Assembly (NCBI GenBank): GCA_015489175.1
Contig: WGAI01000060.1
Coordinates: forward strand, 1-33,333
Source of the DNA: Caldifarciminota bacterium
GTDB lineage: Bacteria > Hydrothermota > Hydrothermia > B15-G9
Direction of reading: 5' to 3'
DNA length: 33,333 bases
The notes under the pieces are model-generated. The model was given only the letters and a program-made list of their open reading frames with translations, did not search any database and was not told the origin of the DNA. Shown here one piece after another: positions 2,614-12,672 of this stretch; the stretch's first letter is position 1; each line of letters opens with the position of its first letter. The position numbers and the translations under genes were made by a program.

Positions 2614-3387
2614 ATGAAATTGATACGATACATTGAGGGACAATCATATCTCCACAAAATAAATCCTGTTATAAAAGCTATTGGGGTAATGACGGTCATG
2701 ATCGCTGTTATAACCTCATCGAGCTGGCTTTTCATATTTTTCGTGTTTTTGGTTACTACATTGATGATGCTTGTGGCAGACATAGATGTTTCCATGGTTA
2801 GGGGACTTCTGAAGTGGCTTATTATATTATCGTTGGTCATAATTTTGATGAACTACCTGTTTTATAAGCCTTATGGTTCGGATATAAGCCGATTTTTCTA
2901 TATGTCGCGCGAAGGATTTTATCGGGGGCTGTTCATAAGTTTGCGCATAATAACTGTGGTGTTTCTATCATCGATGTTTGTTTTCACGACTGATCCGACT
3001 GATTTCATAAGCGCTTTGATGCAGAACATTGGGTTATCACCAAGGATAGGTTTTTCAATTCTTGTTGCGTTAAGGACCATCCCGATGTTTGAGCTGGATA
3101 TTGAGCGCATAAAAGCCGCACATAAGGTCAGACGATACAAGCCAGAAGGTAATCTCTGGAACAGATTGAAATTCAGGATCATATCTGTGGGATTGCCCCT
3201 TTTCGTGCTTGCGGTTTTGAGGGCTGAGCGCGCGGCTATCGCCATAGTAGCGAGAGGACTTAGCGACAACAGAAAAAGGACATTTTTGAGAACATGGCGC
3301 GTGGGAATTATGGATTGGATTTTTCTTACCGTTTCTTTTATCCTTTCCATCGTTGGTGTTTTGACTGACATTTTCAAAATAACTTAA
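2614..3387 (+). CDS. Energy-coupling factor transporter transmembrane protein EcfT-like (CbiQ family)
   Basis: 257 residues, the usual EcfT length. EcfT couples a substrate-binding S-component to a pair of ATPases in vitamin and metal-ion importers of the cytoplasmic membrane. Hydrophobic segments lie near residues 20-55, 65-85, 105-125, 190-205 and 230-252. The two coupling helices are ERIKAAHKVRR (164-174) and AIAIVARGLSD (208-218). The second keeps the Ala-Arg-Gly motif that contacts the ATPase; the first has AAH instead of ARG. No EcfA ATPase or S-component lies in the window, so this subunit is solitary or uses shared ATPases from elsewhere. Only 13 bases separate it from the PilT-like gene, so the two are probably transcribed together. 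Family assignment is good; substrate is unknown. Confidence 0.75.
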   Translation: MKLIRYIEGQSYLHKINPVIKAIGVMTVMIAVITSSSWLFIFFVFLVTTLMMLVADIDVSMVRGLLKWLIILSLVIILMNYLFYKPYGSDISRFFYMSREGFYRGLFISLRIITVVFLSSMFVFTTDPTDFISALMQNIGLSPRIGFSILVALRTIPMFELDIERIKAAHKVRRYKPEGNLWNRLKFRIISVGLPLFVLAVLRAERAAIAIVARGLSDNRKRTFLRTWRVGIMDWIFLTVSFILSIVGVLTDIFKIT

Positions 3388-3400
3388 TGGAGGGAAGAAT

Positions 3401-4348
3401 ATGCCTAAATTGCTTGCAGGAGATATACTTGACCGCATGGCCACCGAGAGGATAAGGGAGTTGTGGCTGGTCCCTGGTTCGGTGGCGGTTTACCGGAAGG
3501 AAGGGCAGATTGAGCCCTTTTCACAGGATAGGCTTTTCCCGGATGACATAAGACAAATACTCATGAATTTTCGTTCGAGGGCAGCTCTGCATGCCGGCAC
3601 GGGTATGGGGGAATCGGGCAGTTTCTCATTTGGGGTTAGGGGAGTTGGTAGGTTTCGTGTGAGCTATGTCATGCAAAGGGGGTCTTATGCTGTTTTTGTA
3701 TTTCTGACCGGAGAGAAGCCGCCGCAACTCGACATGCTGGTGAAGGACATGGAGATGATGGCTTCACTTCGCCAGATGATGGCTTCAAGAGAAGGTTTAA
3801 TTCTCGTCACCGGCCCGTTCAATGTGGTCAACTTCGATTTTACAGGTGCAATAGTGGATGAAATCATAGATAACAGGCACAGCGTGGTTTACACCGTTGA
3901 ATCCCCCCTCATGTATACCTTGCGTCACAGGAAATCGGTGGCAATCCAGTGCGAGGTTGGCACGGATGTCCCAACCGTCAGAAAGGGCATAGAAAACGCT
4001 ATCAGCATCGCTGCCGATGTGCTGTATCTCAGCAATATCCCTAATAGCGAAGCACTTGAAACGCTCCTGAAATCCATCGAGGGTGGTCGCTTGATCATAG
4101 CCTCACTGAACGCAGCCGGTGTCGTGCCTGGTCTGGTGGGCATGGAGGCGCTTACCCGTAATCCGAGATATTATCGACAGAAAATCTCCTACGCCATTTT
4201 GGGGGTGTTCTCTCCGAAGATAAGCGACGAAAAATCGATTGTGGAGTGGGTGAAGATATCCGATGAGCTTAGAAACGCCATAATCGAGGGCAATTATGAG
4301 GAGCTGAACAAGCACATCAAGGTTGCGGAGGCTGATTTCACGCTATGA
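3401..4348 (+). CDS. PilT-like protein lacking all ATPase motifs (pseudo-ATPase)
   Basis: 315 residues, shorter than PilT (about 345-370). The PilT fold is clear: VRGVGRFRVSYVMQRGS (79-95), EGLILVTGP (131-139), the Glu of TVESP (165-169) and EVGTDVPTVRKGIENAI (185-201). The nucleotide motifs are gone. Walker A GPTGSGKST is GPFNVVNFD (138-146). The Asp box TIEDP is TVESP. Walker B GEMRD is SNIPN (211-215). The His box GHLVFGTLHT is GRLIIASLNA (229-238). The reading frame is intact and well spaced, so this looks like a maintained non-catalytic paralogue and not a decayed gene. GGAGGGAAGA precedes the ATG. It overlaps the DUF523 gene by 4 bases (ATGA). A structural or regulatory role at the type IV pilus base is inference, helped by the prepilin 1.3 kb away. 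Confidence 0.8.
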   Translation: MPKLLAGDILDRMATERIRELWLVPGSVAVYRKEGQIEPFSQDRLFPDDIRQILMNFRSRAALHAGTGMGESGSFSFGVRGVGRFRVSYVMQRGSYAVFVFLTGEKPPQLDMLVKDMEMMASLRQMMASREGLILVTGPFNVVNFDFTGAIVDEIIDNRHSVVYTVESPLMYTLRHRKSVAIQCEVGTDVPTVRKGIENAISIAADVLYLSNIPNSEALETLLKSIEGGRLIIASLNAAGVVPGLVGMEALTRNPRYYRQKISYAILGVFSPKISDEKSIVEWVKISDELRNAIIEGNYEELNKHIKVAEADFTL

Positions 4349-4806
4349 TAAAGGCAGTAGCGAGTGCCTGCCTTCTTGGGATGAAGACCCGATATGATGG
4401 CGGCACTAACGAGGATCCTGAGATCGTGGAGATGTTCAAGCGGGGCGAGATTATTCCGATATGTCCTGAACAACTTGGTGGTTTGCCTACACCTCGAGAA
4501 CCCTTCGAGTTCGTGGGTGGAGATGGAGAAGCTCTTCTTGAAGGAAGAGCCTATTTGAAGGGTTTAAATACCGGTCGGGACGGTTCTGAAAATTTTCTTC
4601 GCGGGGCGCGTGAAGTTTTGCGTATCGTCAAACTGGCTGGCATAGAAAAGGCCTATCTGAAGGAAGGCAGCCCTTCATGTGGCGTTAACTGGGTTCATAT
4701 TGAGGGTAATTTGGTTAGAGGCTGCGGCGTAACAGCTGCCCTGTTAAAAAGGGCGGGGATTGAGGTTGAGGGGAGGTTGCCGCCGTCGTCCGTTAGAGAA
4801 AAGTAA
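4345..4806 (+). CDS. DUF523 family protein (TudS-like)
   Basis: 153 residues, full length for the family. Family signatures are SACLLGMKTRYDGG (7-20), CPEQLGGLPTPREP (40-53), LKEGSPSCGVN (105-115) and GCGVTAALLKRAGIEV (126-141). Members characterised as thiouracil desulfurases hold a [4Fe-4S] cluster through three cysteines; the natural candidates here are Cys9, Cys40 and Cys112. It starts inside the stop codon of the PilT-like gene (ATGATAA), so translation is coupled. Its 3' end overlaps that of the convergent Cas6-like gene by 14 bases. The family is certain; the substrate in this organism is not known, and no sulfur-transfer gene is adjacent. Confidence 0.85.
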   Translation: MIKAVASACLLGMKTRYDGGTNEDPEIVEMFKRGEIIPICPEQLGGLPTPREPFEFVGGDGEALLEGRAYLKGLNTGRDGSENFLRGAREVLRIVKLAGIEKAYLKEGSPSCGVNWVHIEGNLVRGCGVTAALLKRAGIEVEGRLPPSSVREK

Positions 4807-5563
4807 CCCGCACGCTGCCGTTGCCGAATTTTCTGAAGAGCCCCACGCCGCTGAACTCTATGAGGTGCATTAAGGCGTTGGCCTTTTGGAGCTCCGCCTC
4901 ATCACCCCCATCAAATTCTATTTCCACATTTCCGCCTATCGAGAACACCTTTGTGTTCCGAAAATGAGCTTCTTTCCCCCTAAGTTTGTAGGACTTGATC
5001 TGAAAGTGCTCGACATCCACATCGGGGAGGCTCCTTTCCGAGAAGTATTCCCATAGTTCTTCTGCCAGTCTAAAAACCTCTTTGAGATCGGGGAATCTTC
5101 TTTTGTTTATGCCAATCAGAATAGGCATATCGGATGAGATCTTAATAATTTTTGCCGTGCGGGATGACAGGAAGTCCCTGTAAAGTTTCGACCTCACTGT
5201 GCTGAAAAGTATCAACCTTGCAGGGATCTCCTCGACATCAAATCTGTTGCTGTTTCGGGTTATCTCGCTAACACCCTGGACAATCGCTTCAAAAGATGGT
5301 TCATCGAGCGTGGCGACAAGCATGTCGAACGGCCGTCCTTCATTCAGAGCTCTCTTTTCCGCTCTCTGAAAGCCACCTTCCGGAGCCACGATTCTGATGG
5401 GCAGGTATTCCTCTTCATCCTCTTCCGACTCGATGCTGGAGTAATACACCTCGCTGCCCATCTTTATGATGCTCTTCAGCACCCTATACTGAAACTCTCC
5501 GATAGTTTCAGTAACATCCACTTTCTCTTCAAGCAATACCCTTAAGTTGATTATAGCAGGCAT
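4793..5563 (-). CDS. RAMP-superfamily protein, Cas6-like (orphan)
   Basis: 256 residues from the preferred ATG at 5563. Its layout fits Cas6-type RAMP proteins, which are two ferredoxin-like folds that bind or cut CRISPR repeat RNA. The N-terminal strand IINLRVLLEE and a helix match the first fold. In the middle, RLILFSTVRSKLYRDF is followed by a long helix DLKEVFRLAEELWEYFSE. Near the end come VFSIGGNVEIEFDGGDEA and a glycine loop FSGVGLFRKFGNGSVRV (residues 237-253). A catalytic His cannot be assigned. An upstream TTG at 5602 and an ATG at 5575 are in frame, but a TATAGA -10-like box (5581-5576) lies over that region, so I favour 5563. There is no CRISPR array or other cas gene beyond the Csm5-like neighbour. 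Fold assignment is by motif reading only. Confidence 0.5.
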   Translation of the reverse strand: MPAIINLRVLLEEKVDVTETIGEFQYRVLKSIIKMGSEVYYSSIESEEDEEEYLPIRIVAPEGGFQRAEKRALNEGRPFDMLVATLDEPSFEAIVQGVSEITRNSNRFDVEEIPARLILFSTVRSKLYRDFLSSRTAKIIKISSDMPILIGINKRRFPDLKEVFRLAEELWEYFSERSLPDVDVEHFQIKSYKLRGKEAHFRNTKVFSIGGNVEIEFDGGDEAELQKANALMHLIEFSGVGLFRKFGNGSVRVTFL

Positions 5564-5610
5564 AACATGTTGCATTCTATAACAAAACCCAAAGAATTGC
5601 AAACTTTACA

Positions 5611-5648: not shown

Positions 5649-6191
5649 TTAAAACGCGCCTTCCCTAACAGTCACTATTTTGGGGATCTCGTCAGTGCAA
5701 TAGAATACGCTGTTGTTCACATTCTCGGGATCAGGAGCGGTGCCATAGCCTCCGTTGGCGTCGAGATCTCCAACGGCAATGATGGTTATATCCTCGAAGT
5801 CAGTGGCCGGAGTGTCATTGCCTTTCTCTTTAGGTATGTTTCCGCCGGATGGTGTGCCTTCAGCCACAAGATAGCTGAAATATACCGAGCCGGCAGGACG
5901 GAACCCAATCCAGTTAAATCCGTCCACATCGGCTCCATGCGAGTCAAAGGGCAAACTTATGGGGCCAGGGACAACTCCGGGTGCCCAACCAGCCACTTTG
6001 TAATAGTTATTTTCTGTGGCAAAAAGCTCTTCGGCTACTCTGATTGCGTGTATGTTGATCTTCGCCTCCGATGTCTTCGCTTTGAGTTGAAACTTTTTGT
6101 ATTGCGGAACGGCTATGGAAGCAAGGATGGAAATGATTGCCACTACGATCATCAATTCGATTAAGGTGAAACCTCTATGCTTCCTCCTCAT
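5649..6191 (-). CDS. Type IV prepilin / pseudopilin
   Basis: 180 residues. It has a class III leader MRRKHRG cut before Phe8, then [19 protein letters not shown] with Glu12 (Glu5 of the mature form) and the hydrophobic N-terminal helix; [16 protein letters not shown] continues the helix. Prepilin peptidase would cleave and methylate it, and an assembly ATPase would polymerise it. The globular part is acidic and ends with [19 protein letters not shown]; only one Cys was noted, so no C-terminal disulfide loop is evident. The start lies 17 bases inside the 3' end of the Csm5-like gene and is preceded by GAAGGTGAT, so the two are translationally coupled. No assembly ATPase, PilC, secretin or prepilin peptidase lies nearby. 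The class is certain; whether it is a major pilin or a pseudopilin is open. Confidence 0.92.
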
Positions 6192-11091: not shown

Positions 11092-12672
11092 ATGCTTGAT
11101 GCATTAGATCGGGAATTGCGACTTGTGTGGGATCAGCTTCGTGGTAAAAAAAAGCATCTTACTTATTTTTTAGAAGAGATATCGCTCGAGAATATCCGTT
11201 CTTTTCGCAAAAAGGTTAAAATAAAATTCGATTATCCTGTAAGTGTGTTAGGCGGCGAAAATGCATCTGGAAAAACCACGGTTATTATGGCAGCTGCCTG
11301 TGCATACGATAATCCCGATGGACGTATTTACCCTTCTAATGTGTTTCCGAGGTTTTTGCCGAAGGAGGAAGATTTTCCAAAAGATGAACTTATGGGAGCT
11401 GCATTGGAATTCACTTATACTCATGAAGGGAAGATTTTGCAAATGTTGTGGAAACAGGGTAAAGATGGGCGCTGGAATAAAAGTTTCTTTGGTCGCAAAA
11501 GAGCTTCATGGCCGAAAAGAAGAGTTTATCTCAGGACTTTAGCTCAGCTTACACATCCTTCAGAGATCAGAAAATTCATAACATTGGCGCAGAAAAAGGA
11601 TCTCCACATAGAGGCTGTCGATCCATATTTCATTTCATTGGCGGAGCGTGTATTGGAGACAAACTATGGTGAAGTTCTCAGAATTTTGCGTGAACAGGAA
11701 GACAAAGGGTTGCTCTTTGCTAAACTATCTAACAAAACAAAGTATTCTGAGTTTCACATGGCGGCGGGGGAAAGGTCAGTTTTGCGATTATCTTTAGTCC
11801 TTGCCAAGCCTGAAATGGAAAATGCGTTGGTTTTAATAGATGAAATCGAGAACAGTTTGCATCCTTATGTGCAGAAGAAACTTATGCTTGAGCTTCAGAG
11901 GCTCGCTTTACGGAAATCCTTGCAGTTTATCATAACCACTCACAGCCCTGTCGTTTTAAACGCCGTCCCACCAGAAGGCCGGATAATACTTCAGAGGACT
12001 GACGAGGGGGCAAAAGTCATTCCGCCGTTTATAGATCTCGTCGAAAGAGCACTTTACGGGCAGACTGAAAGGAAATTAAAGATCTTATGCGAAGACCGAG
12101 TGAGTGCAGAGATCATCCGTGGTGTCCTTGATATCCTCATCCCTAAACTTCGGATTGCTCATGAAGACATTGAGATAGGGCACGACACCGGGAAAACGGA
12201 ATTTAAACACCATCTTTCTACCATCTTGAAATTTGGCATGGAAAGGGAATTCATATTTATCCTTGATGGAGATGCTCATAATATCGCTTACGAATTAAAG
12301 AGGATTCATCCATACCTGCGTGTTTTGCTCCTACCCGGCAGAAAACCTCCAGAGGAATGGATTTTAGATGTGCTTGAAAAGCATGGCTCCGATTATGTAG
12401 GACTTATACCTGTCGAGAATGAGGAAGTGTTGAGAAGGTTCCTTAGAAGAGTTGATTCAATTTATGCAGCCTCAACTGGTGATAGGCGTGCAATAGCGAA
12501 GGAAAAATATCGCACATTTGTGAGTTACTTCTCACTCACTGAAGAACAACTTGCAAGAATAGTTGCGAGACACGAGATGGAAAAACATAGAGGGGAGATT
12601 GTCGAGTTTTCTGAGCAGCTGGAAGACGCTATAAATTCGTGGCGAAGCCCGGAGTTTCGTCGCTTCGTGTGA
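11092..12672 (+). CDS. OLD-family endonuclease: ABC-type ATPase fused to TOPRIM nuclease
   Basis: 526 residues. The N-terminal ATPase begins with ISLENIRSFRKK and has Walker A GENASGKT (55-62), a signature AAGERS (224-229), Walker B LVLIDEIE (246-253) and an H-loop TTHSP (282-286). The TOPRIM domain follows: KILCED (330-335) with the acidic residue Glu334, then FIFILDGDAH with Asp392 and Asp394. OLD-family proteins are DNA nucleases; relatives include GajA of the Gabija defence system and phage P2 Old. Here it stands alone: no UvrD-type helicase (GajB) or other partner is adjacent, and the neighbours face away. The gene looks AT-richer than the protease and GH18 genes beside it, which would fit acquisition by transfer. 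A defence role is inference. Confidence 0.82.
   Translation: MLDALDRELRLVWDQLRGKKKHLTYFLEEISLENIRSFRKKVKIKFDYPVSVLGGENASGKTTVIMAAACAYDNPDGRIYPSNVFPRFLPKEEDFPKDELMGAALEFTYTHEGKILQMLWKQGKDGRWNKSFFGRKRASWPKRRVYLRTLAQLTHPSEIRKFITLAQKKDLHIEAVDPYFISLAERVLETNYGEVLRILREQEDKGLLFAKLSNKTKYSEFHMAAGERSVLRLSLVLAKPEMENALVLIDEIENSLHPYVQKKLMLELQRLALRKSLQFIITTHSPVVLNAVPPEGRIILQRTDEGAKVIPPFIDLVERALYGQTERKLKILCEDRVSAEIIRGVLDILIPKLRIAHEDIEIGHDTGKTEFKHHLSTILKFGMEREFIFILDGDAHNIAYELKRIHPYLRVLLLPGRKPPEEWILDVLEKHGSDYVGLIPVENEEVLRRFLRRVDSIYAASTGDRRAIAKEKYRTFVSYFSLTEEQLARIVARHEMEKHRGEIVEFSEQLEDAINSWRSPEFRRFV

Follow-up and report, generated by a model that had tools for sequence, protein, structure and literature searches.

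The window, that is, the whole 33,333-nucleotide stretch of DNA analysed here, is contig C60 of a 2.06-Mb genome (completeness 95.6%), and its forward strand carries at 3401..4348 an open and intact reading frame of 315 aa for a non-catalytic PilT/PilU-like protein, hereafter pseudo-PilT. The gene is preceded by a ribosome-binding site (GGAGGG, 3389..3394, +, 6 bases 5′ of the ATG), and its stop is overlapped at 4345-4348 by the ATG of the downstream DUF523 gene (2-thiouracil desulfurase family, 4345..4806, +), so that the intact frame, the good ribosome-binding site and the coupling to the next gene, all read from the sequence in an earlier note, are borne out. Upstream, at a distance of 13 bases, lies a gene for a CbiQ/EcfT-type transporter subunit (2614..3387, +), in an order kept within the genus. 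The nearest public relatives are MAGs of candidate division WOR-3 (97% and 75% identity in this protein), a name now placed by NCBI in the phylum Caldifarciminota. The earlier note also pointed to a prepilin gene (N_methyl, PilA-like, 5649..6191, −), which indeed lies 1.3 kb away but on the opposite strand. Since the 75%-identical relative (G002) keeps the ecfT-pseudo-PilT-DUF523 trio without the pilin and Cas6-like genes, the linkage is lost already within the genus, and we therefore rejected a functional link with this prepilin and regard it as a chance neighbour. The Cas6-like protein of the window (4793-5602, −; TIGR01877 E 2e-6; PADLOC Cas6_IIIa 3e-7) is an orphan whose gene converges on DUF523, and no direct repeats of at least 22 bp were found in the window. 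Note that the window also encodes an AAA/OLD-like ATPase (11092-12672, +; PADLOC candidate-defence match HEC-04, 2.3e-47) and a surface-type protein with a C-terminal FlgD-Ig-like domain (100-1479, +; E 2e-4).

The earlier note had recognised a PilT scaffold in this protein, and the profile, the sequence matches in the PDB and the predicted fold all agree with it. Indeed, the PilT profile TIGR01420 matches the window protein with an E-value of 1.3e-29, but its 103.5 bits stay far below the curated NCBIfam cut-off of 319 bits, and the same gap separates the family members (83-150 bits) from canonical copies (404-499 bits); Pfam T2SSE (PF00437) exceeds its gathering threshold marginally (25.8 bits vs 24.9), and solved PilT structures in the PDB (2gsz/2ewv/5fl3) match the protein at E about 1e-24. 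AlphaFold2 models were built from family-only alignments for two divergent members, the window protein and a member from family f11 (mean pLDDT 89 and 91, respectively), and Foldseek found in both the N2D + RecA-like CTD fold that is also that of PilT (Gm PilT4 6ojx/6ojy, Aa PilT 2gsz/2ewv, Tt PilT2 5fl3). The window-protein model matches PilT2 5fl3 (TM 0.81) and PilU 9n32 (TM 0.82), the f11 model PilU 9n32 (TM 0.81) and PilT 3jvv (TM 0.86), and for both models PilT and PilU rank above DotB, GspE and PilB. This DotB/GspE/PilB branch of the PilT/VirB11-like ATPases shares the superfamily fold with a weaker match (TM 0.52-0.75); pseudo-PilT has no N1 domain. DotB/GspE/PilB ATPases keep intact motifs. 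A viral origin was rejected, the only strong BFVD matches being two ATPases with phage labels (11-16% identity) whose fold is of the broader DotB type. PilU, the PilT-dependent accessory retraction ATPase, resembles pseudo-PilT both in a fold match equal to that of PilT (TM 0.81-0.82) and in being an accessory paralogue that exists besides PilT; unlike pseudo-PilT, however, PilU retains its motifs and powers retraction with its own ATPase (PMC6762196), and an ordinary PilU-like protein is encoded elsewhere in the same genome (G000:C8). Compared with PilT itself, pseudo-PilT aligns at the GxGRF, QRG, TxExP, QxEVGxD, ExG and R254 positions, but it shows only ~22% identity, lacks ~40-50 C-terminal residues and does not lie beside pilB/pilC.

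The state of the ATP site was established from an alignment of ten family members with 36 canonical PilT/PilU of the phylum and G. metallireducens PilT (whose numbering is used for PilT below), the PilT interface contacts being taken from the list in PMC6858323. In the window protein, the Walker A place (3812..3838, +) reads GPFNVVNFD and not GPTGSGKST, with G136, K137 and S138 replaced by V143, N144 and F145. The ASP-box place (3893..3907, +) reads TVESP, in which Glu167 (PilT E160) is retained while D161 and E164 (now M171) are replaced; the place of Walker B and the catalytic Glu (4016..4042, +) reads DVLYLSNIP, with N212 for E205; and the HIS-box place (4079..4111, +) reads EGGRLIIASLN, with G228, R230 and N237 for T221, H223 and H230. 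Two arginines are replaced as well (R195 by S202, R98 by F101), and the protein ends in a remnant of the AIRNLIRE region (DELRNAIIEGNYEEL, 4262..4345, +), short of the PilT end. These losses extend over the family. The Walker A pattern GxxGxGK[ST] occurs in no pseudo-PilT and in all 36 canonical copies sampled; the E205 position is N, D or K in the 10 aligned members, and only a partial copy (G034) may have Glu; a HIS box (T221...H230) was not recognised in the family; E164 is retained in 0/10 and R98 and R195 in 1/10 each. In contrast, E160, R81, S73, E178, G180, Q176, D182, D199, G222 and R254 are kept in 10/10. The claim that every ATPase motif has been erased therefore stands for Walker A, the catalytic Glu and the HIS box, but not entirely for the ASP box, whose first Glu (E160, here E167) is family-invariant together with R81 of the N2D (here R84).

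Judged from the aligned residues, pseudo-PilT is unable to make use of the PilT ATP site, having lost the residues that handle phosphate, Mg and water; it is without a PilT-type nucleotide site, and its sequence excludes catalysis. An ATPase or NTPase with a non-canonical site could draw on the first ASP-box Glu and R81, which are retained in all complete members, and on the TxEDP that f11 members still show in the ASP box. We nevertheless consider it very improbable, as no member has a P-loop lysine flanked by glycine and Ser/Thr, and the residues that replace E205, E164, H230, R98 and R195 differ by lineage, as they largely do at the lost ATP-site positions in general; a hidden or alternative nucleotide site was accordingly rejected on these residues. 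A targeted, surgical loss of the motifs is not supported either. Only 14 of the 88 highly conserved PilT positions (16%) are kept and 74 (84%) are changed, so that the motif loss is one part of a broad divergence, in which the pore-loop-3 sequence is changed and shortened, the closed-interface residues (T221-H230, R195-D161) and L269/P271 are lost, and the C-terminal region, including the open-interface contact G339, is absent.

Strong purifying selection acts on the pseudo-PilT family. Using the Nei-Gojobori method on three close pairs from three lineages, we obtained dN/dS values of 0.033 (window vs G001), 0.006 (G004 vs G006) and 0.015 (G007 vs G009), far from 1, and four flanking genes in the window vs G001 pair gave 0.037-0.091. 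In addition, representatives of four families share 45 residues without exception, and at 19 positions at least 90% of the family agree on a residue unlike the canonical majority. The constraint has also shifted between domains, since the N2D (residues 1-103, 3401..3709, +) is the relatively more conserved half in pseudo-PilT, whereas the PilT proteins encoded by these genomes are more conserved in the CTD (p about 0.002, bootstrap of the interaction). The maintained pseudo-ATPase proposed earlier is thus supported by the dN/dS of three pairs, by a whole family without Walker A and by a confident PilT/PilU fold, and these results suggest that the protein is functional, as a non-motor partner or a scaffold, and that the gene is not dying.

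The earlier note had also named decay and stop codons among relatives as evidence that would speak against it. Eleven copies have intact frames; the exceptions are the G034 copy, which is cut by a contig end, and the G005 copy (L044 6140-7069), which has two in-frame stops (TAA at the position of Walker A, TAG close to the C-terminus) without a frameshift and which may reflect a recent loss or a sequencing or assembly error. These two stops, and the four f6 genomes in which a clean empty site stands where the gene would be, are what could be adduced for a gene in decay, a pseudogene that by chance kept its frame. Such a reading is hardly credible in view of the dN/dS values, the 11 intact copies and the residues invariant over four families, as well as the good ribosome-binding site and the three-gene order conserved within the genus; for the window copy, dN/dS and family-wide conservation rule out a pseudogene.

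The orthologous family was found in 13 of the 147 genomes of the phylum, all of them in the window's own class (40 genomes) and distributed over the taxonomic families f1, f2, f3, f6 and f11. It forms one clade (support 100/100), separated by about 4 substitutions per site from the 36 canonical PilT/PilU, whose motifs are intact. In f2 genomes, cca and kdsB flank the gene; it comes after kdsB in f11 and abuts cca in f6/g18, and in four f6/g7 genomes (L108, L110, L112 and L113) cca and kdsB meet directly, with ends overlapping by 11-21 bases, at the same point where f2 genomes carry pseudo-PilT. These patterns fit vertical inheritance from an ancestor of the bearer families, followed by relocation of the gene in f1 and f3 and by its clean loss at least once. 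The linkages to cca (f2, f6) and kdsB (f2, f11) are the best conserved and support orthology and age, not function. Indeed, no neighbour was found to be shared across all bearer lineages, the gene being flanked by ecfT/DUF523, cca/kdsB or kdsB/thrC, and no pil gene is a conserved neighbour among the loci compared.

In the genome of the window, a different contig bears a normal pilB-pilT-pilC-pilS-pilR operon (PilT at G000:C44), and a second PilT/PilU-like ATPase is encoded at another place. Bearer genomes generally have an ordinary pilB-pilT-pilC motor together with a second PilT/PilU-like ATPase; in the bearers looked at, this genome included, pseudo-PilT is unlinked to pilB-pilT-pilC. Within the class, pseudo-PilT is present in 13/28 genomes with PilT/PilB-type motors and in 0/12 without (Fisher p 0.0035, a value uncorrected for phylogeny and drawn from few lineages). 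Fifteen class members have a pilus motor but no copy, four of them with the clean empty site, and in G005 the motor is present even though the pseudo-PilT copy carries two stops. Two bearers have no visible pilB-adjacent pilT: in G034 the contig with pilB stops at the point where pilT would come next, and in G030, a 98% complete bearer, the assembly contains neither pilB-pilT-pilC nor the flanking epimerase gene, the absence of the latter making an assembly gap likely. We do not count either bearer as a clean counter-example. Note that G030 (L126, L127, L130) has a PilU-like gene and a CpaF-like gene, each at the end of a different contig.

This distribution bears on the main rival explanation, according to which the PilT/PilU fold has been reused outside pili, in a stand-alone scaffold or binding protein of metabolism or the envelope that merely coincides with piliated lineages. 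The lack of linkage to pil genes, the housekeeping neighbourhoods (cca, accB, efp, kdsB, thrC, ecfT), the few PilT-conserved positions retained over so long a branch and the many piliated relatives without the gene are all compatible with such a protein. However, the gene is found in none of the 12 class members without pilus motors, the PilT subunit-interface residues R81, S73, E178 and G180 are among the invariant ones, and the neighbourhood is itself not conserved, so that the alternative pathway is not named by the neighbours. Altogether, we regard reuse outside pili as an appreciable possibility, though one that we would sooner doubt than accept.

The explanation that we prefer, tentatively and at a little below an even chance, is that pseudo-PilT diverged long ago from PilT as a non-catalytic paralogue and now binds the type IVa pilus retraction motor or regulates it, and we infer that it functions through contact with pilus motor proteins. 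The suggestion of the earlier note that the protein could plug or regulate the retraction motor, or serve as a scaffold, is thus plausible, and its occurrence together with type IVa pilus genes fits. In such a mechanism, the conserved N2D face and the interface residues (PilT S73, R81, E178, G180) would pack against a neighbouring PilT-type CTD, making pseudo-PilT either a non-firing ring subunit or a layer stacked on the PilT/PilU motor, where it could brake retraction, keep interfaces in the open state or bring in another factor. The four retained residues are used by PilT at open interfaces or in both states, and if pseudo-PilT joins the ring, the open state would be favoured because these residues are retained and the closed pairs T221-H230 and R195-D161 are lost. 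A precedent exists in V. cholerae, in which PilU can still drive retraction when PilT is impaired in binding or hydrolysing ATP, and surplus Walker A mutant PilT is dominant negative (PMC6762196). Like pseudo-PilT, PilT[WA] and PilT[WB] are non-catalytic. These mutants are still able to act with PilU or, in the case of overproduced [WA], to interfere; but they are laboratory point mutants in an otherwise intact PilT, while pseudo-PilT is a naturally evolved and deeply diverged family. Against this motor-partner reading stand the missing pil neighbour, the 15 piliated class members without a copy, the altered pore loop 3, the loss of the C-terminal region with G339, the G030 assembly without pilB-pilT-pilC and the stopped G005 copy in a genome with a motor.

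The same residues also bear on another arrangement, a homomeric, non-rotating ring or clamp that would sit on the PilC platform instead of PilT or PilB and hold the pilus static. The whole N2D + CTD architecture of the AF2 models and the conservation, throughout the family, of R81 and of the open-interface residues E178, G180 and S73 could serve such a ring. We consider it unlikely, however, given the loss of the closed-interface residues, L269/P271 and the C-terminal segment, and the changed and shortened pore loop 3, which in PilT is the predicted PilC-binding element (PMC5424180).

No report of a PilT-type pseudo-ATPase was found in the open-access literature searched, and all four Geobacter PilT paralogues retain the motifs (PMC5065972). 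Pseudo-PilT has the fold and ancestry of PilT and departs from it on the catalytic features tested. Motors of this family are hexamers, and their subunits tend to be regarded as equivalent; to our knowledge, dead PilT-family subunits are known only as laboratory mutants. We think it possible, if still somewhat doubtful, that pseudo-PilT is a natural dedicated pseudo-ATPase, an inactive PilT whose packing with live PilT/PilU would brake or license that motor and which selection has preserved within part of a candidate phylum. Such a naturally dead paralogue, strongly selected, would open a direct way to study the roles of PilT beyond hydrolysis, such as recruitment, coupling to PilU and interface state, and it adds to the pseudo-enzymes that outlive catalysis. 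If pseudo-PilT instead proves independent of pili, it would be an instance of the RecA-like fold of a secretion ATPase put to use as a scaffold.
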